From: Plumapathes pennacea
Taxonomy: Eukaryota; Cnidaria; Anthozoa; Antipatharia; Myriopathidae
Direction of reading: 5' to 3'
Assembly (NCBI GenBank): GCA_964036295.1
Contig: OZ038465.1
Location: 24,214,870 to 24,278,869, forward strand
Length of the DNA: 64,000 nt
Shown: positions 23,614-64,000 of the stretch, one piece after another
How positions within the stretch are numbered: the first letter of the stretch is position 1
Layout of the letters: each line of letters starts with the position of its first letter
The notes under the pieces: generated by a model
The model's database searches: none
Seen by the model: the letters and a program-made list of their open reading frames with translations, nothing else
What the model was told of the DNA's origin: nothing
Made by a program: the position numbers and the translations under genes

Positions 23614-23756
23614 GTTTGTGACATTTCCTTCAAATGTTGATTTCGAAGAATTTGTCCGTAGGAGTCGAAAGGTTTACCTTTTGTAACGCCTGGTGAGTGG
23701 CAAGAGTATGAGTATAAGTTTATTGAAATGTTTCATTTAGTTGATTGCGAACATCA

Positions 23757-24834
23757 ATAGAGTTATGGATGCACGCGGGAAGTTGAGAGAGCACGAGAGA
23801 AGCGTAAGAGTTGCTCGAAGCGTAGACGAGAGCAACTCTAGCTTCACGAGTGCTCTCCTAACTTCCCAAGTGAATCCATAACTCGATAGACGCACAGCTA
23901 AAAGTATGAACCAATTCTTTTATAACATAGGCACATGAGCGAAAAACAAATTTTCATTTCTGATTGAATGCAAAGTTCTCTTTCGACGCGCAAAAGGAAA
24001 AGCAAACTCTCTCATCGGCTGATTGAAAACACGCCACAGCTTACTAACATTTCTGCCATCTAGAAGTTGATGAGAGTCGATGAAAAAGATGTCGTTTAAT
24101 CGACGAAAACACTGAAATTACTGTTAACCTGGCGTGGTGAAAGCCAGCAGCCTGCGGTGACTTTAGAATTTGTGACGATGTAATTGTTTTGAACGGTACA
24201 ATTGAAGATGAACCCAGGAAATTCAAGTCGCCGCTTCAAAACAACGTGAGATTCACCTTGAACTATGGCAGACAATGCGGGTCTGGAAAAGCAAAGAGAT
24301 CCGTCAAAGATGTAAATAATCACCATGAACGGAAGAGATAGAAATGTTTGCCGAGCGGACTTGTTTGTTATTCGAGCAGCCAGCAAACTGTACTGTAAAC
24401 ACTGCAAGTATGGCGGCTTTCAGAATGAATGAAACTCGTTTCATTTCAAAAACATTGAAGGCTTGACAGATATTTATCTTTGCTGTGATGGATTTCATTG
24501 TCCATGAGAATTAAGCCGTCGAGAAATAAGTGAGTTTTGATTCATACAATTTTCTGTGCCGACCGTCGAAAATCCAAAATATTTCAGACTTGAATACTGA
24601 TTTTCTTTGGGTGCGGTTGTGACTCCATGCAGTACAAAATTCTTCAGAAAAGTAAAGCTATTTTCCTCTGAGTTGTAAAGCGTCTGTTAATTTTTAAACG
24701 AGGAAAGCTAGAAAAAGTCGAAAGAAAACGACATTTGCTCACGTCATATTATTGAGCACGGGCGTGCACGATAAAGTTATGGAGCACGCTCTTCGAAAAT
24801 CAAAACGTGGCTTATATCGTGACTATGTTATAAT
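23757..24834. mobile_element. Hairpin-ended element, family C, copy 1
   Basis: The left end is a palindrome whose arms start GAGTTATGGATGCACGCGGG and close near 23890. It is followed by TATAACATAGGCAC, while the right end is GTGACTATGTTATAAT, an inverse of that subterminal motif. Near the right end AAGTTATGGAGCACGCTC resembles one hairpin arm in direct orientation. A second copy lies at 46277-47397. The right boundary (24834) meets the later tyrosine recombinase insertion. Confidence 0.65.
24096..24498 (-). pseudogene. Two overlapping frames with a signal-peptide-like start
   Basis: 24498-24304 reads MKSITAKINICQAF, then FILKAAILAVFTVQFAGCSN, a basic start and a hydrophobic core ending in AGC as in secreted proteins. 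It overlaps 24407-24096, which reads CFSRPALSAIVQGESHVVLK, then FPGFIFNCTVQNN and TAGCWLSPRQ. Both frames are preserved in the second copy (47063-46661) with only a few changes. They may be a captured exon 1 plus downstream sequence of a secreted protein gene. Not recognised; probably not expressed as one protein because the frames differ. Confidence 0.35.
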
Positions 24835-24838
24835 TAAT

Positions 24839-25006
24839 AAATTTCCACTGGTTTGCCGTGGTGTGGACTCTTATTTACCACGAGTTACGTCATCACATGG
24901 TCAAAATGTTGTGGAAGCGCCTCGTGAGTCCGCAACTAATTTTGACCATGTGATGACGTAAATCGTGGTAATAAGAGTCCACACCACGGCAAACCAGTGG
25001 AAATTT
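24839..25006. repeat. Terminal palindrome of the recombinase element
   Basis: Left arm 24839-24906 (AAATTTCCACTGGTTTGCCG at its outer end) pairs with right arm 24939-25006 around a 32-base centre. Pairing is nearly perfect over 67 bases. Such a structure would extrude as a cruciform or fold in single-stranded DNA. Confidence 0.9.
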
Positions 25007-25225
25007 GTTTTCTACCACAATAATTAGAAATATACAACAAAGTTTCGTTGTATTTCGTCGCAAAACGTGACAGATAAAAAGAGCAAGCATTGTCTATAAC
25101 TTTCTCGCAATCTGATTGGTTTATTTTTTGAAGTGCCTGAAATAGGCGTTTCTGATTGGTCATTACAACAATAGCTTGAAAACTAACTTGGCGAGTTCAA
25201 AAGTTCTCGAAACGTGCACAAATGT

Positions 25226-26795
25226 TCAAACAACATTGCCGTTATTTGGGGGCAGAATATACACATTAGCATTTGCAATAGTGCAGTCACGGAATAATCC
25301 ACTCGGGAAGGACATAGCGCTGGTGTTTGAAGCACAAAGATAAACTGTGTTAGTTGAAGACGAACCCGAAGATGTCGCTGGAACAACTGCAGTTGAAGTC
25401 GGTGCTCGGCCAACTAGTGCATCGGAGAGGATGTTTGAGCAGTTCTTCAGTTGTTGAGCCGATGGTCTTGAGTTATAGCTTGCAATACTCTGTTCGTTGG
25501 CGTGACCAGAGATCGACATTATGTGGCGAGAAGGCACTTCGGCGTTGGACCAAACTGTGATGGCCGTCGCTCTAACACAGTGATTTGTGTAGATTTGTGA
25601 AAGGCCAGCGCCGAGCGAGATTTCTTTCATCATTTTCGACAGCGTGTTGACTCCCAGAGGGCTGTTGTCGTACCACACTGGATCTGATTCATTGGCTTTT
25701 GGCTTGGGTCGCTGGAAAAAGGCTGGCTGGTTTGGGTTCAGCTTTTGCACATACTTCTGAAGACACCTGTAGGAGTCATCAATCTGACCCGTCGAGTAGA
25801 GCCGGGTCTGCTTTTCGTGGCTCGTTTTCTCAGATATTCCTCCCTGGTGGTTCTTGGTCTGGACATTGTGGGTCATTTCGGCGTAATTCTGGCCGTCTGC
25901 GTCGGTTAGAAACCTGAAACTATCCCGACGAAGTTGCCTTTGACCTTCACAGCCGCGCCGGCACCAGAACAGTGTAACGATAAACCACACACGGCGAAGG
26001 AGACCCGCGGCATCGCTGCAGCTTAAGAATGGGCTGTTTTTCAGCTTCTCGATATCCTCTGGTTGGATGACTGCCTTGTGTTGCACGTTTTCTTTACCTT
26101 GCCTGCGGTTGAGCTTGAGTTTGCACCCAAGCATTTTGTTGGACCAGGCGAACAAGGGATTCTTGGTGATTTTCACCTCCCGGTTGTTGGCGGCGAGATA
26201 TCTCTCAACTGCATTTCTGAAACCAAGCAGCGACGACCTGCCGTATTCTTCACCCTTCTTGGTCCTAGCCTCGGCGTAAAATCTCCGAAGAACATTGTCC
26301 ATGTCTTCGTACCTCATTGTCAATAAGTTGCTGGGTAGCTCGCGGTCACGGCACCATTCTGCAATGTAAAAAACAGCAGAACTTTGTAAGTACAGCTTTA
26401 AAAATATATTAACCACGACATATTTAATAAATATGTTTACCTTCGATTGTGTTGACTATCCACTTTGTATTCTTCTTTGTTCCCTTTGCCTCAGCGCTGC
26501 TAATTATCGCCGTCAGGTCCTCATCGGTTAACAATGCAAAGCGAGTGTTTTCCGACACTAATTTGTTAGTCTCGACCAGGCTTTCGGTTTGGGTTTTCTC
26601 TGCCATCTCAGCGTGTTCAATTAATTCGTCATCCGTTGTGTAAAAGCTGTCGAAATCTGCTAAGACGTTTATACCGAGTTCAAAAGTCGGGAAGCACTCA
26701 AAATTATCCATGTTAAAATTATTAAAAGGAAGCCTCTGAAACATGAATGCTGGCGACATGAATGTTGGCGTCAGCATCGTTGTCTGGACTCTCAT
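25226..26795 (-). CDS. Crypton-type tyrosine recombinase, two exons
   Basis: Exon 1 runs from ATG 26795 (or the more likely internal ATG 26711, MDNFECF) to 26441. The intron is 26440-26359 (82 bp, GTAAAC...TTGCAG), and exon 2 is 26358-25226. From ATG 26711 the protein is 467 residues: acidic N terminus (about 1-60), helical DNA-binding domain (TKWIVNTIEEWCRDRELP, about 80-180), catalytic domain (about 190-390) and a Ser/Thr-rich tail. The expected catalytic set is visible: R224 (CRRGCEGQR), a Lys in TKNHQGG (about 258), H349-x-x-R352 (TNHCVRATA), H375 (SGHANEQ) and nucleophile Y384 (SYNSR). Similar domains occur in Cryptons and in ZMYM/QRICH-type host proteins. No defect is seen, so it may be active. 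Confidence 0.88.
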
Positions 26796-26811
26796 TTACC
26801 ACGGTAAATCG

Positions 26812-26832
26812 ACCAATCAGAAAGCGAGAAAC
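26812..26832 (-). promoter_or_regulatory. CCAAT-box motif shared by hairpin elements
   Basis: ACCAATCAGAAAGCGAGAAAC lies just upstream of the recombinase start, close to the right end. The related element has GCCAATCACAAAGCGAGAAAC at about 28846. Conservation between otherwise diverged elements suggests a promoter or recombinase-binding site. Role inferred. Confidence 0.45.
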
Positions 26833-26854
26833 TAGTGTGTTGTGGTAGAATGAT

Positions 26855-27892: not shown

Positions 27893-28250
27893 TATATTTT
27901 TATTATATAGACACGAGTGTTTTACTGGAAAATATACCGTGCGTAAAATCCATACGAAACTACATCCGGGAACCGAGTGGCGTATTCTCCATATCCTCAC
28001 TAGTGAGGATATCGTTGGCATCATTTCCCGCTTTTGCACGGTTGTTTGTGCAATTTCTCGTAAAACACTCGTGTCTAATATAATAAAAAGAAAATTACAC
28101 GGCGGCTTGAAGATATGGATTTTATCTTCTCGTGGTAAAAACAAAATTTTACTCACTCGCGAAGCGCTCGTTCGTAAAATATTGTTTTTACCACTCGAAA
28201 ATAAATTTCATATCTTCGCGCCGCCGTGTAATATCCTATATATATATATT
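27893..28250. repeat. Double-palindrome repeat, family E copy 1
   Basis: Two palindromes in series: one with outer motif GACACGAGTGTTTTAC (27908 to about 28080), the next from TTACACGGCGGCTTGAAGAT to its inverse ending GCCGCCGTGTAA with a CGCGAAGCGC centre. A second copy with the same order lies at 29805-30152. No protein frame is supported. Confidence 0.75.
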
Positions 28251-28254
28251 TAAC

Positions 28255-28888
28255 AAATTGACGTCAGTTTTTTATGTGTCTGTCCTCTTATTGATCATGA
28301 AACGCGTTATAGCATTGTCAAAAAGTTGTGGATCCGCAACTTTTTGACAATGTTATGACGCGTTTCATGATCAATAAGAGGACAGACACATAAAAAACTG
28401 ACGTCAATTTGTTTTTTACAATAACAAAACTCAAGCGACGACGCGGGGAAAACACGCAAGAAAACTGGATTTTGTTCGATTTGACCGAAATGTTGTCAAC
28501 AACTTTTCCCGCTTTCTAATTGGTCGAGGTCGAAATTCAAGACATTTCATTGGCCAAAAAGTGACAGCTTGATGTGAGCATTTCGCGCGTGCAAAATAAA
28601 ATTTTGTCAAAGAAGTTGGAAAGAAATGAAACTAAACGCTTTTCTGCTGCGGTTTTCTCGACAATTTCAAGACAAAGCTCAAGGAAATTCGCCTCTGAAC
28701 ACTTCTGGTCCTCTACTTCAAATGCCAAATGTCGCTTTTGCAAGAACTGAGGTAAATTTGAAGCTGAATTCACCTTCTTCGTCCAAATCACTGTCGTCAG
28801 CACTCGATTTTATGTGTCTGTCCTCTTATTGATAATGAAAATTAGCCAATCACAAAGCGAGAAACTGACGTGTTATTGTAAAAAAATA
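28255..28888. mobile_element. Non-autonomous relative of the recombinase element, family B
   Basis: The left palindrome 28258-28408 (outer arm TTGACGTCAGTTTTTTATGT) is followed by TTTTTTACAATAACAAAAC. Near the right end the arm recurs once in direct orientation (TTTTATGTGTCTGTCCTCTT at 28808), then the CCAATCACAAAGCGAGAAAC motif and a terminus GTGTTATTGTAAAAAAAT that inverts the subterminal motif. This is the same plan as 24835-26851 in 634 bp. A minus frame with an acidic start (DDSDLDEEGEF) may be the relic of a recombinase N terminus. Confidence 0.75.
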
Positions 28889-29216: not shown

Positions 29217-29692
29217 CCCATCAAATATTTCCCCCCGCGCGTGATTGGTAGAATTGTGACACGTGATCGAATAACGTCCGCTCGTGAGCGGACGTTATCA
29301 GCGAATAACCCCCGTCTGGCAAACTAACGCTGTTTATTGACAATATCCGAACACAGTTCTATTTATTTAGTCACAAAATCATTACAAGACGACTACTGAG
29401 GAGGAAATCAATTTATTGGTCGAAAATGCAGTTCCAGAAAGCACTAAAAAGCTTCACAGTTTCCGCGCCGTTATTTGCACTGCGAGAAGAAATATTTGAA
29501 GGATAATAGAGACAATAAACTACTTTTGGCTTCGGAAATATGCACAGATAATTGTCCTTGGGCATTATCTGTTCCTCCAGTTGCCCTCGAGCTTCGCTCT
29601 CGGGCAACTGTTTGCTTCTCGGAACAGATAATATCCTCGGACAATTATCCGTGCATATTTCCGAAGCCAGAAGTAGTTTATTGTTTATTTAT
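29215..29692 (+). mobile_element. Hairpin-ended element, family D, copy 1
   Basis: Starts GACCCATCAAATATTTCCCC, then GTGATTGGTAGAATTGTGAC and a perfect 22-base palindrome (ACGTCC...GGACGT) at about 29276. It ends with a larger palindrome 29518-29690 whose arms carry ATATGCACAGATAATTGTCC. An inverted full copy is at 31034-31522. Confidence 0.7.
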
Positions 29693-29812: not shown

Positions 29813-30152
29813 ATTATATAGAAACGAGTGATTTTCTGGAAAATATACCGTGCGTAAAATCCATACGAAACTACATCCGGGAACCGAGTGGCGTATTTTC
29901 CATATCCTCACTAGTGAGGATATCGTTGGCATCATTTCTCGCTTTTGCACGGTTGTTTGTGCAATTTCTCGTAAAACACTCGTGTCTAATATAATAAAAA
30001 GAAAATTACACGGCGGTTTTAAGATATGGATTTTATTTTCTCGTGGTAAAAACAATATTTTACTTACTCGCGAAGCGCTCGTTCGTAAAATATTGTTTTT
30101 ACCACTCAAAAATAAAATTCATATCTTCGCGCCGCCGTGTATCCTATATACA
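29805..30152. repeat. Double-palindrome repeat, family E copy 2
   Basis: Same order of motifs as 27893-28250 with few substitutions, including the CGCGAAGCGC centre. It abuts the deleted family D copy on its left. Confidence 0.75.
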
Positions 30153-31033: not shown

Positions 31034-31522
31034 ATATAAACATTGAACTACTTTTGGCGAGGAAATATGCACGGATAATTGTCCGAGGATATTATCTGTT
31101 CCGAGAAGCAAACAGTTGCCCGAGAGCGAAGCTCGAGGGCAACTGTTCGCTTCTCGGAACAGATAATGTCCAAGGACAATTATCCGTGCATATTGCCGAA
31201 GCCAAGAGTAGTTTATTGTCTTTATTATCCTTCAAATATTTCCTCTCGCAACACAAGTAATGGCGCGGGGACTGTGAAGCTTTTTGGTGCTTTCTGGAAC
31301 TGCTTTTTCGACCAATAAATTGATATCCTCCTCGGTAGTCCATCTCGTAATGGGTTTTTGTGATTGATATATAAAACTGTGTTCGGATATTGTCTATAAA
31401 CAGCGTTTGTTCGCCAGGCGGGGGTTATTCGCTGATAACGTCCGCTCGTGAGCGGACGTTATTCGGTCATGTGTCACGATTCCACCAATCACGCGCGGGG
31501 GGAAATATTTGATGGGTCATAA
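31034..31522 (-). mobile_element. Hairpin-ended element, family D, inverted copy
   Basis: Inverse of 29215-29692: the large palindrome (arms around 31060-31200, loop GCGAAGCTCG) comes first and the GATGGGTCA terminus last. The interior GTGAAGCTTTTTGGTGCTTT and the ACGTCC/GGACGT 22-base palindrome (about 31437) are conserved. Confidence 0.75.
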
Positions 31523-36324: not shown

Positions 36325-37925
36325 GGGCTTCTCATGTAAAGCCTGGTCCTCACTAGCGCAGAAACATAAGAATAAGCATAAGTATAAGAATAAAAAAGCG
36401 ACAGTGGCGACATAAGCATAAGCATAAGCAACGGACATGTTTGATCCTTATGCTTATTTCGCCACTGTCGCTTAAGGAATATTAAATGAACACATTTATA
36501 ACGGAAACGGAAATGAAATTCGAAGAAACCCATACAAGTGCGGCTGTCAAATTTGATGAGCATTTGACGTTTGCAGCCAAGGTGAATCGCCAAGTCTGCA
36601 GCTAAAAAGTTTTTGTAGTTTAAATTCTTCTTATTGATTTGTGAATGGTGAAGAGGATAACTGGTTGAGTTCTGCGAAAAGTAACATGGGGAAGTTAATG
36701 CAGAAAGTTTCTCGTAACTTGCTGCAACGGATGGCAACGAACAGAGTCGCTCGCAAAACTCGACATTGTCTTCATCAAAGTTAAGCGAAAGATAAGTTCT
36801 CTTTGGAGCCAGAAATAATCTTCATGTAGGTCAGTAGTCTTTCAGGCCTGAATTCTCTAATTTCTCGTCTCCAAAGATGTAAATTTTAATTGCTTGTCGT
36901 TCCAGCAAAGCTTCCTGGGACTCTTAAGCCCTGGCCAAACGAGGTGCAAGTCAACGCAAGTCGTTGCAAGTTTTCAAACTTGCGCGGATTTGCGTTTCAT
37001 TTGGCCACCAACTTGCACGGACTTGCATCGACTTGCATGGAATTTGAACATGTTCAAATTTTCATGCAAGTCGACGCACGTTTTTCACCTAAAACAGCGA
37101 AGAGCGCGTTAGCAAAGGCAAGTCTAAATCAAAAAAATCAAAAGTAAACGCCTCCTCATTAAGTTTCAGCTCAAGAGAGACTTTTTACTCGGTTTCTGAC
37201 TCAAAACCGTCTAAAAAAGAAAAAGTTTTTACAAAACTTGCATGAGTTTGCATCGACTTGCGTCTCGTTTGGCCACCTTTTGCAAGTCGATGTAAATTTT
37301 TTTGTCATGTCGAACTTGCATCGACTTGCATCTCGTTTGGCCAGGGCTTTACATGACTACTTTCAAAATGGTGGCGGCGGTTACCGCCATTTTATCTTGA
37401 ATTCATGAATTCGCCGAGATGCGTATTGGGCTGAGTAGCAGGTAAGGCTTGCCGTTTAATTGTTTGTTTTCTTCGACAGTACATAGTAAGACTGGTCAAT
37501 TTTCGTAGACTTATGATGCATCCTCAAATAATTATAGTTTTTCATACCACTCGTTTTACTTGTTTCCTTTGGCTCCGCTGAAGTTGGTGGTTTCTTTTGT
37601 ACTTTTCTATGACATTTTGTTCACATAAATAAAGGAAAAGTGTAGATCGGGCCTGTATGCCCTAAGCTTGCAAGATTTATACTTTGAAATTTCTTGTTTA
37701 CGATTTACGCACGGCATAAAATTTTGCCGATCGGTGCAGGTTTCAATAATCACAAAGTCCTGTAATAAATGTCTTATTCACCGAGTTTGCTCGGGACCGT
37801 ACTGAAAGAATATCGGCCCTCGGTCTTTATTGTAAGGACCTTGCTGCGCTCGGTCCGTACTGTCATGACCTCGGGCCGATATTCTCCCAGTACGGCCCTC
37901 GCACTCGGTCAATAAGATATATTTA
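36325..37925 (-). mobile_element. Repeat G copy 2 (with nested MITE)
   Basis: Aligns with 35290-36310 apart from the 422-bp insertion at 36927-37348 and a short extra segment near 37500-37550. The terminal palindrome is about 37771-37916. It is the left edge of the block duplicated at 56095. Confidence 0.75.
36924..37351. mobile_element. 422-bp MITE with TTA duplication, copy 1
   Basis: TTA|AGCCCTGGCCAAACGAG ... CTCGTTTGGCCAGGGCT|TTA. The ends are perfect inverses, and the interior repeats ACTTGCATCGACTTGCA in both directions. Repeat G copy 1 shows the uninserted site (ACTCTTGCAGGACTAC near 35820). Likely PIF/Harbinger-derived by its 3-bp TTA duplication. Confidence 0.88.
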
Positions 37926-39557: not shown

Positions 39558-39855
39558 CTCGTTACTCGCATTTTTCCTCGCCCCGTGGCAACTCGTTAAA
39601 TACCGGCCCGTATCACGCGCTAAACCATTTAATAAGATGTATTTATTACACGACTTCACATTTTCGAGTGGAAATACAGGCCAAAACGAATGCAAAGATG
39701 GGAGCGTATTGCAATCGTCAGGAACCAGATCAACTAGTTTATTAGCTTACGTGATCAATTTTCGCAAGCAAAGTTTACGAACGCGTCATATTTTTGTTCC
39801 ATTTTGCGTGCGGCGAGAATATTTGCCCTGCTTCGTTTGTCGTATAATAAACAAT

Positions 39856-39991
39856 TTATTACACGAAAAGTTGTGCAATACGGCTGTACTTTTACTCTTC
39901 AGTTTCATTTTTTCTCGCCTGAAACAGGCTCAAAAAAAAAAACCGACTCGCAAAAATACTCCGCCGTATTGCACACCTCTCCGTGTAATAA
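39856..39991. repeat. Terminal palindrome of element H, copy A
   Basis: TTATTACACG...TTGTGCAATACGGC pairs with GCCGTATTGCAC...CGTGTAATAA; the centre contains ACTCGC and CTCGCCTG steps. Its counterpart in C is at 59139-59278. Confidence 0.75.
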
Positions 39992-40065
39992 CCTCTTTAA
40001 AATACATCCGTGTAAATGGTTATTGAATTGAGTGTTTCTGTCAGCACATTTGGAGTGTGATTTAC

Positions 40066-46276: not shown

Positions 46277-47397
46277 GCTTTAAGAATTGGTTCATGCTTA
46301 GCGTGTGTCTATCGAGTTATGGATGCACGCGGGAAGTTGGGAGAGCACGAGAGAAGCGTAAGAGTTGCTCGAGGCTTGCTCGAGGCGTAGCCGAGAGCAA
46401 CTCTAGCTTCATGAGTGCTCTCCCAACTTCCCAAGTGCATGCATAACTCGATAGACGCACAGCTAAAAGTATGAACCAATTCTTTTATAACATAGGCACA
46501 CGAGCGAAAAACAAATTTTCATTTCTGATTGAATGCAAAATTCTCTTTCGACGCGCAAAAGGAAAAACAAACTCTCTCATCGGCTGATTGAAAACACGCC
46601 ACAACTTACTAACATTTCTGTCATCTAGAAGTTGATGAGAGTCGATGAAAAAGATGTCGTTTAATCGACGAAAACACTGAAATTACTGTTAACCTGGCGT
46701 GGTGAAAGCCAGCAGCCTGCGGTGACTTTAAAATTTGTGACGATGTAATTGTTTTGAACGGTACAATTGAAGATGAACCCAGGAAATTCAAGTCGCCGCT
46801 TCAAAACAACGTGAGATTCACCTTGAACTATGGCAGACAATGCGGGTCTGGAAAAGCAAAGAGATCCGTCAAAGACGTGAATAATCACCATGAACGAAAG
46901 AGGTAGAAATGTTTGCCGAGCGAACTTGTTTGTTATTCGAGCAGCCAGCAAACTGTACTGTAAACACTGCAAGTATGGCGACTTTCAGAATAAATGAAAG
47001 TCGTTTCATTTCAAAAATATTGAAGGCTTGACAGATATTTATCTTTGCTGTGATGGATTTCATTGTCCATGAGAATTAAGCCGTCGAGAAATAAGTGAGT
47101 TTTGATTCATATAATTTTCTGTGCCGACAGTTGAAATGCAGAATATTTCAGACTTGATTACTGATTTCCTTTGGGTGCGGTTGTGACTCCATGCAGTACA
47201 AATTTCTTCAGAAAAATAAAGCTATTGTCTTCTGAGTTGTAAAGCGTCTGTTAATTTTTAAACGAGGAAAACTAGAAAAAGTCGAAAGAAAGCGGCATCT
47301 GCTCACGTCATATTATTGAGCACGGGCGTGCACGATCAAGTTATGGAGCACGCTCTTCGAAAATCAGAACGTGGCTTATATCGTGACTATGTTATAA
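46277..47397. mobile_element. Hairpin-ended element, family C, copy 2
   Basis: The more complete copy of 23757-24834: palindrome 46277-46487 with about 85-base arms (AAGAATTGGTTCAT at the outer edge; CTATCGAGTTATG inside), then TATAACATAGGCAC. The right end GTGACTATGTTATAAT inverts that motif. Directly after the right end comes GATTGATCGATGAAACG, the uninserted target of the recombinase element. Confidence 0.75.
46661..47063 (-). pseudogene. Signal-peptide-like frames, copy 2
   Basis: 47063-46869 reads MKSITAKINICQAFN, then FILKVAILAVFTVQFAGCSN; 46972-46661 repeats the second frame of copy 1 (ALSAIVQGESHVVLKRRLEF). Substitutions relative to 24096-24498 are few and the frames stay open. Confidence 0.35.
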
Positions 47398-53145: not shown

Positions 53146-54277
53146 TGTGTGCATATATATATCTTATTAGACACTTAGGTGTGTAGTACGGCTGTATATT
53201 TTTACGAGTCGTGCAGTATTTTGGCGAGCCGCTTCGGCGAGCCAAAATACAAACGACGAGTAAAAATATACAGCCGTACTACACGCCTAAGTGTCTAATA
53301 AGTTATTTATTATACAACTCCCTTAGTAAAAGATGTAAATTATTTTCAAATCGCGGTACGTTGTGTGACCAAAGTGACATGTTTTCCGCGCGCGATATGT
53401 CAATCAAGTTTAGTGCCGTGTGCAGTGTAAGCAAGCACGGATTTTGTACTTGCAGTATTTCTAGTCGTTGTTTTCCGAGCCGAGTAACATTGAAGCTGAA
53501 AGAGGTACTTTAAACAAAGTTTGCGGGGAGATCTGAGATCATACTGCATCACATAATGTGGTCATAAACAGAACAAATTGGACGAACGAGATGTGTCAAC
53601 ATTTTCATTTTCGTCGAGTGCCATGAATCAACAAACAGCCAGTTCTCGCCTTCTCCTCGCTCATGAAGTATGAAAAGGACTTTATCTTGTGACCAGTGGT
53701 GGTACAGGTCGCATTGCCGTTTCTCGATAGAGGTAATCATTGCCTGTTGTTGCAAGTCGATGCCAGATCTTGGACTGGAATTACACGTCGAGGCAAATCC
53801 AACGGCTGCCGTGTTGAATGCCGACAAAAACTCGTTTCGAGATTGACAGGGATTCTTAAACTTCTCTCAGAAATATTGATCTGGCTGGAAACACTATGGC
53901 CTGATAACCGAACTGTGGTGTGTGGTCCGACATTTTGTGGAACGGAAGATTAGTTATGTTGCGGCAAATTCAGTTGATTTTCTGACGAAGAAGCTGGTCT
54001 CCGTGCTCGATTTTGCGTATCGGATAGTAAGCCAGGTCAGTTTAAATTCTGTGCTTCTTTCTTTGCTTAATAATCTCTAGAAGTGATGTAAATACCAGCT
54101 GTGCACAGGGTGACTTTTGTACGAAAAGCGAAAGAAAAGAATTAACGGCAGCGAAAGAAGAAAAAGTTTTTTTTTCCTTAGCAACGTTGAATACAGCTGT
54201 ATCTTTTTTACGTGTCTATGGAGTTATTCGCACGTTACTATGCGGTATTTTCACGTTACTAAGGGAGTTGTATAATA
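53146..54277. mobile_element. Hairpin-ended element, family F
   Basis: The left palindrome is 53152-53304: TATTAGACACTTAGGTGTG, with an inverse ending CGCCTAAGTGTCTAATA and the centre GCGAGCCGCTTCGGCGAGC. Next comes TTTATTATACAACTCCCTTA. Near the right end the arm recurs once (ATACAGCTGTATCTTTTTTA, about 54192), and the terminus GTTACTAAGGGAGTTGTATA inverts the subterminal motif. The empty allele is seen in copies A (about 41840) and C (about 61130). A minus ATG at 53624 starts MALDENENVD, possibly the relic of a recombinase N terminus. Confidence 0.75.
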
Positions 54278-54481
54278 AAGGAAACGTATTGAACTAACTT
54301 GTAGTCGAGTATTAAGTCCTGGTTTACTTTTTCTTGGCTAAGTCTTGAGGTTTTACGAACGTTACACTGAACAACAAAATCTGCACATGCATATACAATT
54401 TTGTGAAATGAGCGCTGACTTAAAAAAGGTCACCGCACGATCAAAAAGCGTATATCGGTGTGCCATTGCTGTGTTACTTAC

Positions 54482-58560: not shown

Positions 58561-59138
58561 GGCAATCGGACTATGCAGAACATTTTTAGCCACTGTCAGT
58601 ACAAATTTCGTGCACCCATTCTGCTTTTCAAGTTCGCTCTCGGATGTCAAACTTTGTCGATTTTGTCCAATCACATTAAAGGCAGTAAATTGGCTTCCGC
58701 GTGAACCGTCATCACTGACTGGCTTTCGAATGTTCATCAGGGCAAATGAATGCAAAAATATCACAAGAAGAATGAAAAACAGGCTCAAAAAAACAGTCAT
58801 ATAATAAATCCCTCCTTCCATGTAAACAGGGCCTTACTCGTTACTCGCATTTTTCCTCGCCCCGTGGCAACTCGTTAAATACCGGCCCGTATCACGCGCT
58901 AAACCATTTAATAAAATGTATTTATTACACGACTTCACATTTTCGAGTGGAAATACAGGCCAAAACGAATGCAAAGATGGGAGCGGAGCGTATTGCAATC
59001 GTCAGGAACCAGATCAACTAGTTTATTAGCTTACGTGATCAATTTTCGCAAGCAAAGTTTACGAACGCGTCATTTTTTTGTTCCATTTTGCGCGCGGCGA
59101 CAATATTTGCCCTGCTTCGTTTGTCGTATAATAAACAA

Positions 59139-59278
59139 ATTATTCCACGAAAAGTCGTGCAATACGGCTGTATTTTTACTCGTCAGTTTCATTTTTTCTC
59201 GCCTGAAAGAGTCTCAAAAAAAATAAAACCGACTCGCAAAAATACTCCGCCGTATTGCACACCTCTCCGTGTAATAAC
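59139..59278. repeat. Terminal palindrome of element H, copy C
   Basis: Counterpart of 39856-39991, with the same GCAATACGGC/GCCGTATTGC pairing. Confidence 0.7.
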
Positions 59279-59351
59279 CTCTTTAAAATACATCCGTGTA
59301 AATGGTTATTGAATTGAGTGTTTCTGTCAGCACATTTGCAGTGTGATTTAC

Positions 59352-62497: not shown

Positions 62498-64000
62498 GTG
62501 CCCGTTGGGTCAACAAGCGAAGCCTTGGACAATCGTTCCACCAATTCAGAATTTGGAGAAAAGTATAGAAAATACAGCAACTATGTTGTATCAATGCGTA
62601 AATCTCGCGAGAGTAGACGGGCATCTAAACATGCCAGAAAACGAGAGCGTGAGCCATCTAGAATCCCTGCTAAGAAGCTGTTAAATGCGATGCGCAGAAA
62701 ATTACGTAGAAAGAAAATAAGATATTATATTAGAGATTTTATTCCAAGGTCATCACGACTACATGATATTAGCAAACGCTATAAATATTGGCGCTTGTGG
62801 TACTTCGGTGATAAACTTTACACTCGGTACGCTGCATGTATGAAATGTGTTAGATGTCTAAAAAGACAGAGTCATTGTCCTTGGGAAGCTAGACCAGGAA
62901 AAACCACAGTCCCATCGGATGCTGTTTTTGCAACACAGAAATATACACACATTACTTTAAGAGGTGGCATGCTATCTTGCAATCCTTCACAAGATTTGCC
63001 AATGCAATGCCTGAGTGAAAGGCTTTCTCATTTAGGTTTAAAACCATTGGATGTTGGTGGTTCTGGTGATTGCTTCTTTAAAGCAGTTTCTCATCAGCTT
63101 TATCAAACACCTGCTTTACTGCAAGAGTTCGGATGGCTGGAATAGATCATTTAATTACCCATTCTGAGTTTATTCAGGACATATGTCACTGCTATTTCAT
63201 GGGAGAGATACATTGTTCAAATGTCAACACAGGGTACATGGTGTGACAACATAATTATTCAAGCAGTAGCCAATGCTCTTAACTGTGTGGTACATATAAC
63301 ACAGTCCAATAACCATGATGGTGTTATTGTTACTCCCAAAAGTAGAAATGTATCTAGTGACAATCTTAGTATTATTTTTATTGGACACATTCCTGAAGTG
63401 CATTATGTCTCAACTGTTGAGAATCATCCTCAAGGTAGTGATGGAATATGTCTCAGAAGAATGATTTTAGAAACAGAATCTGCAAAGATTGGGCACCTTG
63501 TTCAGCAAAGGGAATCCCAGGAAAGAATTGAGAAAAACAGACAGCGTATGAAACAACAGCGATCTGTAGAAACTGACAAACAAAGGGACAAGAGACTTGA
63601 CAAAAATAGTCAATACAAGAAAAGGCAAAAGTTTGTTGAATCTGATGAGCAAAAACAACAAAGGCTTGCTAGAGACAGAGAATGGCAAAGAAATCATCGT
63701 AAAAATGAAACTGAAGATGAGAAGCAAAAAAGACTTGAAAAAGCTGTGCAGAATAAGCAAGAAAAAAATTTTGCAAAAAGAAGGAAACTAACCATAAGTC
63801 AACCAGAGTACCTTGAACAGTTTGACATGTTCAGTCATGGTCCTATTCACGAACAACAGTGGGCTAAATCTAACCTTGATAAATTTCACAAAGCTATTAT
63901 ATTTGGTATTAATCAGTGTACAATATGTAAAGAGGCGTGGCCAATGAGATCCAAACCAAAATCACCTGAAACCTACGTTTGTTCACGTTGCTCTAGAGAA
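62498..64000 (+). CDS. Helitron-like protein N-terminal part: OTU + DUF6570-like
   Basis: No ATG fixes the start; the listed left edge is only where the frame opens, and the true start may be upstream through a frameshift or intron. Order: a basic region (RRASKHARKREREPSR, 62590-62720); an OTU cysteine protease domain (about 63040-63420) with DVGGSGDCFFKAVSHQLY holding the catalytic Cys, and EVHYVST holding the catalytic His; an Arg/Lys/Gln-rich linker (63525-63790); then LEQFDMFSHGPIHEQQW, CTICKEAW and VCSRCSRE, a paired-CxxC domain like DUF6570. The frame is interrupted between 63118 and 63200 by two compensating frameshifts (the bridging frame reads VRMAGIDHLITHSEFIQD), so this copy may be inactive. 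It is open to the window end. Confidence 0.75.

Follow-up and report, generated by a model that had tools for sequence, protein, structure and literature searches.

We propose, at a probability of about 0.57, that the elements described here are DNA transposons of the Crypton kind, with a CryptonA-like recombinase, which integrate by exchange of one strand from a folded hairpin site. The focal element (family A) and further elements of families B, C and D lie in the window, by which we mean the whole stretch of 64,000 nucleotides that was analysed, and their features are listed in Table 1. An earlier note on this DNA took them for recombinase transposons with Crypton-type enzymes, and the Pfam match to DUF3504, a domain derived from Crypton recombinases (Kojima and Jurka 2011, PMC3212892), bears this out.

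Table 1. Features of families A to D in the window (coordinates are window positions).
Feature	Position	Strand	Remarks
Family D copy hosting element A in its right end	23754-24833	+	first bases not aligned
Full element, family A	24834-26850	-	palindrome at left, gene on minus strand; boundaries the same in copies, with small differences
TT, element-borne	24834-24835	+	lacking in the internal copy; bulges by 2 nt at the crossover when the joined ends are folded
One-sided near-perfect palindrome (outer arm, loop, inner arm)	24836-25009	.	also in copies
Internal complementary site, ICR-like	24997-25020	-	reverse-complementary to the right end followed by the TT-less left end
Crossover equivalent in the internal complementary site	between 25009 and 25010
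Exon 2	25226-26358	-	tyrosine recombinase (DUF3504 / Phage_integrase) with the catalytic R, K, HxxR, H and Y
Intron	26359-26440	-	82 nt, GT-AG
Exon 1	26441-26711	-	starts MDNFE
Third arm, direct half-copy of the outer arm	26778-26803	+	26 nt, 88%
CCAAT box	26813-26817	-	close to the right terminus in nine of the 14 ends inspected; taken by us as a probable promoter element
Right-end motif TTGTGGTAGAA	26840-26850	+	complementary to 25010-25020
Family B non-autonomous element	28250-28883	+	same plan; recombinase-bearing partner L071
Family D non-autonomous element	46280-47397	+	same plan; recombinase-bearing partner L077
Family C non-autonomous element	~53158-54279	+	same plan; left boundary by eye

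The anatomy of the focal element is secure. Its palindrome is built of two inverted arm pairs (24836-24875 with 24970-25009, 98%; 24875-24907 with 24939-24971, 97%) and is followed by a short motif (CTACCACAA), the inverse of which stands at the right end (TTGTGGTAG), all as the earlier note had it; the loop is ~12 nt longer in most other copies. The boundaries are equally secure, and the span previously given as 24835-26851 is corrected to 24834-26850. As read from junctions and empty sites, the outer ends of the family are TT|AATAAATTT... at left and ...GTGGTA(A/G)AA at right. Inverted terminal repeats were not found in the window element, where the right end has only short or imperfect inverted matches with the inner edge of the palindrome.

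Copies of family A were sought in the 290-Mb genome (24 contigs), and the best 40 of 1661 candidates were scored. These 40 include 12 near-full copies with 97-100% identity and 22 short loci (L018-L039) of ~330-360 bp, in which the palindrome and its inner edge are joined to the last 90 nt of the element; one of the latter, L021, consists of two nested short copies. Seven near-full copies (L001-L007) have common flanks, as does the partial copy L015, and therefore represent one insertion in a segmental duplication, so that the near-full copies amount to six independent insertions. The eight copies of this insertion, with identical flanks, lie at ~22.7-25.9 Mb of contig C4 in a large segmental duplication that includes the window. 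Left ends of the copies begin with TT-AATAAATTTCC and right ends finish with the sequence given above, at unrelated sites and with few variants (left ends of L012, L013 and L034; right ends of L011 and L031). Because the ends are fixed at unrelated sites, the palindrome belongs to the element. Older, unrelated palindromes are ruled out by the same ends in the 12 near-full (six independent) and 22 short copies; the earlier note, too, had taken the palindrome for a part of the element.

The spliced recombinase of the window element is 467 aa long, is the only open reading frame of the element longer than 123 aa, and matches the Pfam domains DUF3504 (E 1e-11) and Phage_integrase (3e-7). A protein search of the genome gave 108 matching places, from which 18 further recombinase loci were taken. 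DUF3504 was matched in all ten recombinases tested (E 2e-6 to 2e-29, with L074 slightly under the curated cutoff), and the Pfam matches across the ten are DUF3504, Phage_integrase and QRICH1. Ten aligned recombinases have 23-61% identity to the window protein, and R154, K188, H279, R282 and Y314, which we take to be the catalytic residues, are invariant in all ten. The aligned proteins also have a short conserved C-terminal tail, placed after a variable linker and including an invariant cysteine (C378). No close relative of the window protein was found among solved structures (best E 0.11). Elsewhere in the window an open reading frame at 62498-63145 (+ strand) contains a GDCFFKAVSHQLY stretch and, judged by its motif, presumably resembles an OTU-type cysteine protease.

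Families B, C and D are genome-wide repeats with fixed ends, each with at least 40 matching places (duplicates included), and they have the same plan as the focal element, as the earlier note observed for three other elements of the window. It had called their sequences unrelated; they are not wholly so, being diverged, with arm identity between families reaching 78%. It had also credited the focal element, among these four, with the only intact recombinase; the B, C and D elements of the window are indeed non-autonomous, but B and D have recombinase-bearing partners elsewhere. L071 shares its ends with family B and L077 with family D, and these are therefore the likely recombinase sources for B and D.

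The end architecture is common to several families, as had been claimed. A palindrome of ~130-200 nt stands 3' of the gene in 14 of the 18 other recombinase loci (all eight of a first set and six of ten distant ones, L084, L085, L086, L088, L089 and L090), spanning ~10 families down to 23% identity; L083 may be a further case, with its palindrome at a longer distance from the gene in a nested, complex region. The palindromes of L088 and L089 were missed by an ungapped look and found by a gapped scan. Three of the 18 loci (L081, L082 and L087) have no 3' palindrome; L081 and L082 belong to the same family as L083, and L087 is a 3'-truncated copy of the L084 family. Extra palindromes 5' of the gene in L071, L073, L081, L083 and L086 are taken as neighbouring elements; in L071 the extra palindrome is one of family B and stands immediately next to the right end of the element. 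At this point (L071, 1131-1332) the right end meets the other B palindrome without a TT and reads like an inner-edge junction; the other flank is not inner-edge-like.

Several further arrangements were observed. Additional palindromes of ~105-175 nt in the window (28083-28243, 29512-29684, 30007-30141, 31061-31197, 37794-37898, 39842-40005 and 59126-59291) are probably more short elements of the same group, and those at 39842 and 59126 are similar to the inner edge of the L084 family (GTATAATAAACAA...). Family C copies at C9:9807436-9810933 and C8:9886211-9888409 include almost abutting tandem copies and two head-to-head copies whose left ends overlap, which are possible products of joined ends or of targeting to att sites. 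Long self-complementary runs of short-unit repeats lie beside or inside the palindrome region in L073 and L076, and several B insertions are located in TA repeats. Scans for tRNAs and tandem repeats gave nothing that bears on the end design.

The palindrome's inner edge repeats, in inverted orientation, the joined ends of the element, that is, the right-end motif followed by the left end minus its TT; in family A the joined ends read TTGTGGTAGAA-TTAATAAATTTCC. The earlier note had suggested that the direct arm copies could be the two recombination sites and the inverted arm a third. Neither assignment is supported: junctions and empty sites place the crossover at the outer ends, and it is the inner edge, with its copy of both joined ends, that forms the inverted site inside the element. 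In 11 of 12 loci a 38-nt inner-edge query, reverse-complemented, is found again at the opposite end of the element; the score was reached by 0 of 300 shuffles in L071, L084, L086, L088 and L089, by one in L090, three in L085, seven in L073, 14 in L074, 17 in A and 19 in L077, the value for L071 being inflated by 8 nt that belong to the adjoining palindrome. The query fails in L078, a 5'-truncated copy (93/300). With a stricter query of 22 nt lying outside the arm, 11 of 14 loci had no more than 21 of 1000 shuffles that reached the score (0 in L084, L086, L089 and L090; 4 in L071 and L072; 7 in L073; 8 in L077; 11 in L075; 18 in L074; 21 in A); this query fails in the truncated L078 and also in L085 and L088, whose arms, as delimited, extend over the motif. 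In both tests the match sits at the end of the element, a property that the shuffles do not count.

Compared with the inner copy, the left end has two extra bases, TT, in A, B, D and their relatives. When the joined ends are folded as DNA, one stem runs from the right end into the palindrome, and its sole interruption at the junction is a TT bulge; this was obtained in seven of seven folds from five families (A, B, D, L071, L073, L074 and L077). The fold of family C has a stem of 24 pairs up to the junction and small bulges thereafter. Internal segments used as false right ends equalled the observed pairing of the last 14 nt in 4 of 60 controls in A, 4 of 60 in D, and 0 of 60 in both B and C, so that for A and D the pairing measure by itself is suggestive only. 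The joined ends and the inner edge constitute two inverted sites ~170-190 nt apart in one strand.

The arms within one element match at 77-96% and those of different families at 78% or less, mostly far less (some near-zero values being alignment artefacts), which indicates that pairing is kept while sequence changes. Some differences between the arms are fixed in A and B, an example being a TA insertion in the inner arm of ~30 of 33 A palindromes; the hairpin is therefore inherited as imperfect and not re-copied each time, and re-templating of one arm by the other in each cycle is not supported. At L010 a short element (MITE) lies in reverse orientation inside the inner edge of a full copy, with the flanks TTGTGGTAGAA and AACAAATTTCC. 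Its insertion point matches the right-left junction, so that in this one case the inner edge has acted as an attachment site, and in the register that the model expects.

For the analysis of insertion sites, 67 junction pairs were tabulated and six dropped (five with repeated flanks and one with a false right side), leaving 61 insertions (A 25, B 26, D 10); L046 and L050 probably go back, together with L041, to one duplicated insertion, which gives ~59 independent insertions. Family C was omitted because its left boundary is less certain, and the right ends of A, B and D were read at their usual place. The element-borne TT is at the left in 60 of the 61 insertions, as found with left-end search patterns that themselves demand part of the overlap, and the right side varies by site. 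An A is present at -4 in 55 and a T at +8 in 56 of the 61 (background 0.30 each). Repeats of 3-6 nt between the flanks were counted in 0-1 of the 61 insertions at one offset and in 0-4 at the other, and exact repeats of 4-6 nt in at most 1 of 61 per length and offset; with so few repeats there is no regular target duplication. A count free of the filter, in which duplicates of one insertion are included, found TTAATA exact in 34/37 left ends of A (L012, L013 and L034 being one base off), TTAACA exact in 30/30 of B, and TTAAGA exact in 10/11 of D (L117 one base off). The one-sided outcome is thus secure: the left junction has the element's own bases and the right junction is site-dependent, which is the outcome of one strand.

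Unoccupied copies were sought with the joined flanks of 35 sites and found for four (L020, L024, L054 and L064). L054 sits in a repeat with ~40 unoccupied places, 97-98% identical over the joint and of equal length; the unoccupied copies of L024 are more diverged (80%). Exact insertion at L020, L054 and L064 is secure from six empty-site sequences, with A/T bases at the joint assignable to either side. The variable right-hand bases are the target's own at all three, and coupling sequences of the kind known from Tn916 are accordingly not supported. A paralogue of the focal insertion site is present, unoccupied, within the window itself, at 47397/47398 in the right flank of the second D element; by eye, this site and L021, which has inserted into the third arm of a different short copy of A, also fit exact insertion. 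Insertions are present at the right ends of other families (the window copy in D and L028 in B), and at least 2 of 11 C copies, judged by eye, stand at the right ends of the L090 and L084 families, all of which fits a preference for att-like targets.

In the mechanism that we propose, the attachment site would be one strand folded back on itself. Once the ends are joined, the stem of the left palindrome would run on across the junction, because the inner edge is complementary to both the right and the left end, and the TT bulge would mark the crossover and might govern the choice of strand. The recombinase would exchange solely the strand that has both ends (TTGTGGTAGAA^TTAATA), into targets of the form A N ^ N6 N T; this single-strand intermediate would be inserted without target duplication and the second strand supplied by host replication or repair. 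During excision the inner edge could act as a splint holding both ends together. The exchanged overlap of tyrosine recombinases is usually 6 to 8 nt. If both strands were exchanged with unlike overlaps of this length, two kinds of insertion would be expected after replication; one kind is seen, which fits one-strand exchange as in CTXphi and integron cassettes.

The classical Crypton model is the published one (PMC3212892): a double-stranded circle has both strands exchanged, and the palindrome would merely provide extra inverted sites for recombinase binding. It accommodates the inner edge, a complete second site that is inversely oriented. It also accommodates L018 and L127 (2/61), where the donor hexamer TTAAxA stands on both sides as double-strand exchange with a matching overlap would give; these two insertions count against a pure one-strand view, as does L065, the right side of which matches the donor hexamer at 5/6 bases. 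However, both strand outcomes would be expected from unlike overlaps of 6-8 bp, and the element's own overlap is exact at the left in all but four of the filter-free left ends (some of these loci being duplicates), the four remaining ones being off by a single base; moreover, the 61 insertions have no regular terminal direct repeats of the fungal-Crypton type. We regard this model as unlikely.

Another route would be strand-biased circularisation on double-stranded DNA through a figure-eight, with copy-out, as proposed for bacterial SE elements, and with the hairpin serving for binding or regulation. SE junctions are of the same sort, with one side from the target and the other from the donor (PMC9345347), and since strand-biased exchange is reported there too, the junction bias alone is no proof of folded single strands. 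This route leaves unexplained an inner edge that mirrors both joined ends in nearly all loci, and the constant TT bulge, and we consider it distinctly unlikely. Further observations that weigh against folded strands are the loci without a 3' palindrome (L081, L082 and L087) or with an unclear one (L083), the extra palindromes 5' of some genes, the control segments that reach the pairing of A and D, and the failures of the stricter inner-edge test in L085, L088 and the truncated L078.

An RNA route like that of DIRS elements, in which cDNA would be circularised with a reverse transcriptase supplied in trans and the inner edge would be the splint (ICR), draws on a layout like the DIRS1 ICR and on DIRS1 insertion without target duplication (PMC3266345). 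Against it, 11 of the 15 scanned A loci retain the GT-AG intron (six of these 11 being one duplicated insertion, and the remaining four loci not matching the search word), which, by eye, stands at the identical place in four other families (L071, L073, L074 and L077). An intron kept in copies argues against an RNA intermediate and would support inheritance as DNA. The list of open reading frames for the window's element, moreover, includes none of reverse transcriptase size, and we hold the RNA route to be very improbable.

Helitrons too insert without duplication. Mobility by hairpin telomeres (protelomerase-like) or by a Helitron-like rolling circle is disfavoured as scarcely credible, for although Helitrons, too, have a hairpin at one of their ends (PMC3627910), the junctions are at the outer edge of the arm and not at the palindrome centre, the ten proteins match only the Pfam domains named above, and the window element, with the recombinase as its sole long open reading frame, has no HUH-Rep/helicase protein.

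The direct half-copy of the arm that the earlier note reported is present in the window element, where 0 of 500 shuffles reach its score. This third arm is clear in 8 of 14 ends tested (at most 1/500 shuffles in A, B, C, D, L071, L074, L085 and L088), marginal in four (4-21/500 in L073, L077, L084 and L086) and not detected in two (L089, 166/500; L090, 45/500). It is common, not universal, and is not the crossover site; by eye, it has itself been hit by another insertion in L021 and L056. The third arm has no role in the single-strand mechanism proposed above, and that it is a binding site for the recombinase is a guess.

The movement of animal Cryptons has so far been inferred by analogy, and their ends have been described as lacking repeats. 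Ends are now defined in several families together, along with the place of the crossover, a rule for targets and a prediction that is strand-specific and can be tested. Should the single-strand step be real, a mechanism known from bacteria would exist in animals, comparable with that of integron cassettes and CTXphi; Cryptons and DIRS elements would be connected through their ends; and the one-sided palindrome would be a handle for finding Crypton relics, non-autonomous ones included. At somewhat less than even odds, we suggest that these are the first eukaryotic transposons known in which a tyrosine recombinase integrates the element as one folded DNA strand, that the plan is general to CryptonA-like elements, and that Cryptons are thereby linked to the ICR of DIRS elements. 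A hairpin-like shape is known for some Eulor repeats. The Crypton class includes the human Eulor5/6 repeats (PMC5753468).

The literature searched, part of it in excerpt and with most subscription journals and Repbase reports outside its scope, describes neither palindromic ends nor single-strand integration for Cryptons. CryptonA and other animal Cryptons are alike in their DUF3504 recombinase, in being DNA elements with a recombinase only, and in having many non-autonomous derivatives; they differ in being described without terminal repeats (PMC3212892, section 8), whereas the present elements have a one-sided palindrome and an inverted copy of the joined ends, and insert exactly without regular direct repeats. 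Fungal Cryptons have direct repeats of 4-6 bp at both termini, which the present elements lack. DIRS1-like elements likewise have a tyrosine recombinase, an internal region complementary to both termini and no target duplication, but they also have inverted terminal repeats, gag and reverse transcriptase (PMC3266345), where the elements described here have only an intron-bearing recombinase gene. SE elements are alike in junctions that show a one-strand exchange, and differ in being bacterial, with two recombinases and few selected targets; the portions of PMC9345347 cited here mention no hairpin-folded site. Integron cassettes (attC) offer a likeness in a tyrosine recombinase that acts on a folded single-strand hairpin with unpaired bases, semiconservatively, a folding that we infer for the present elements; they differ as a bacterial system of gene capture with a fixed attI platform (PMC7790495), of which there is none here. 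In CTXphi, a single strand with two inverted sites folds up as a hairpin of 150 bp, and the exchange involves one pair of strands (PMC3089051); the likeness lies in close inverted attachment sites that form the active stem within one strand, with completion by the host, and the difference in that CTXphi is a bacterial phage that uses the host XerC/XerD at dif, whereas the present elements have their own recombinase and loose targets in a eukaryotic-type genome.
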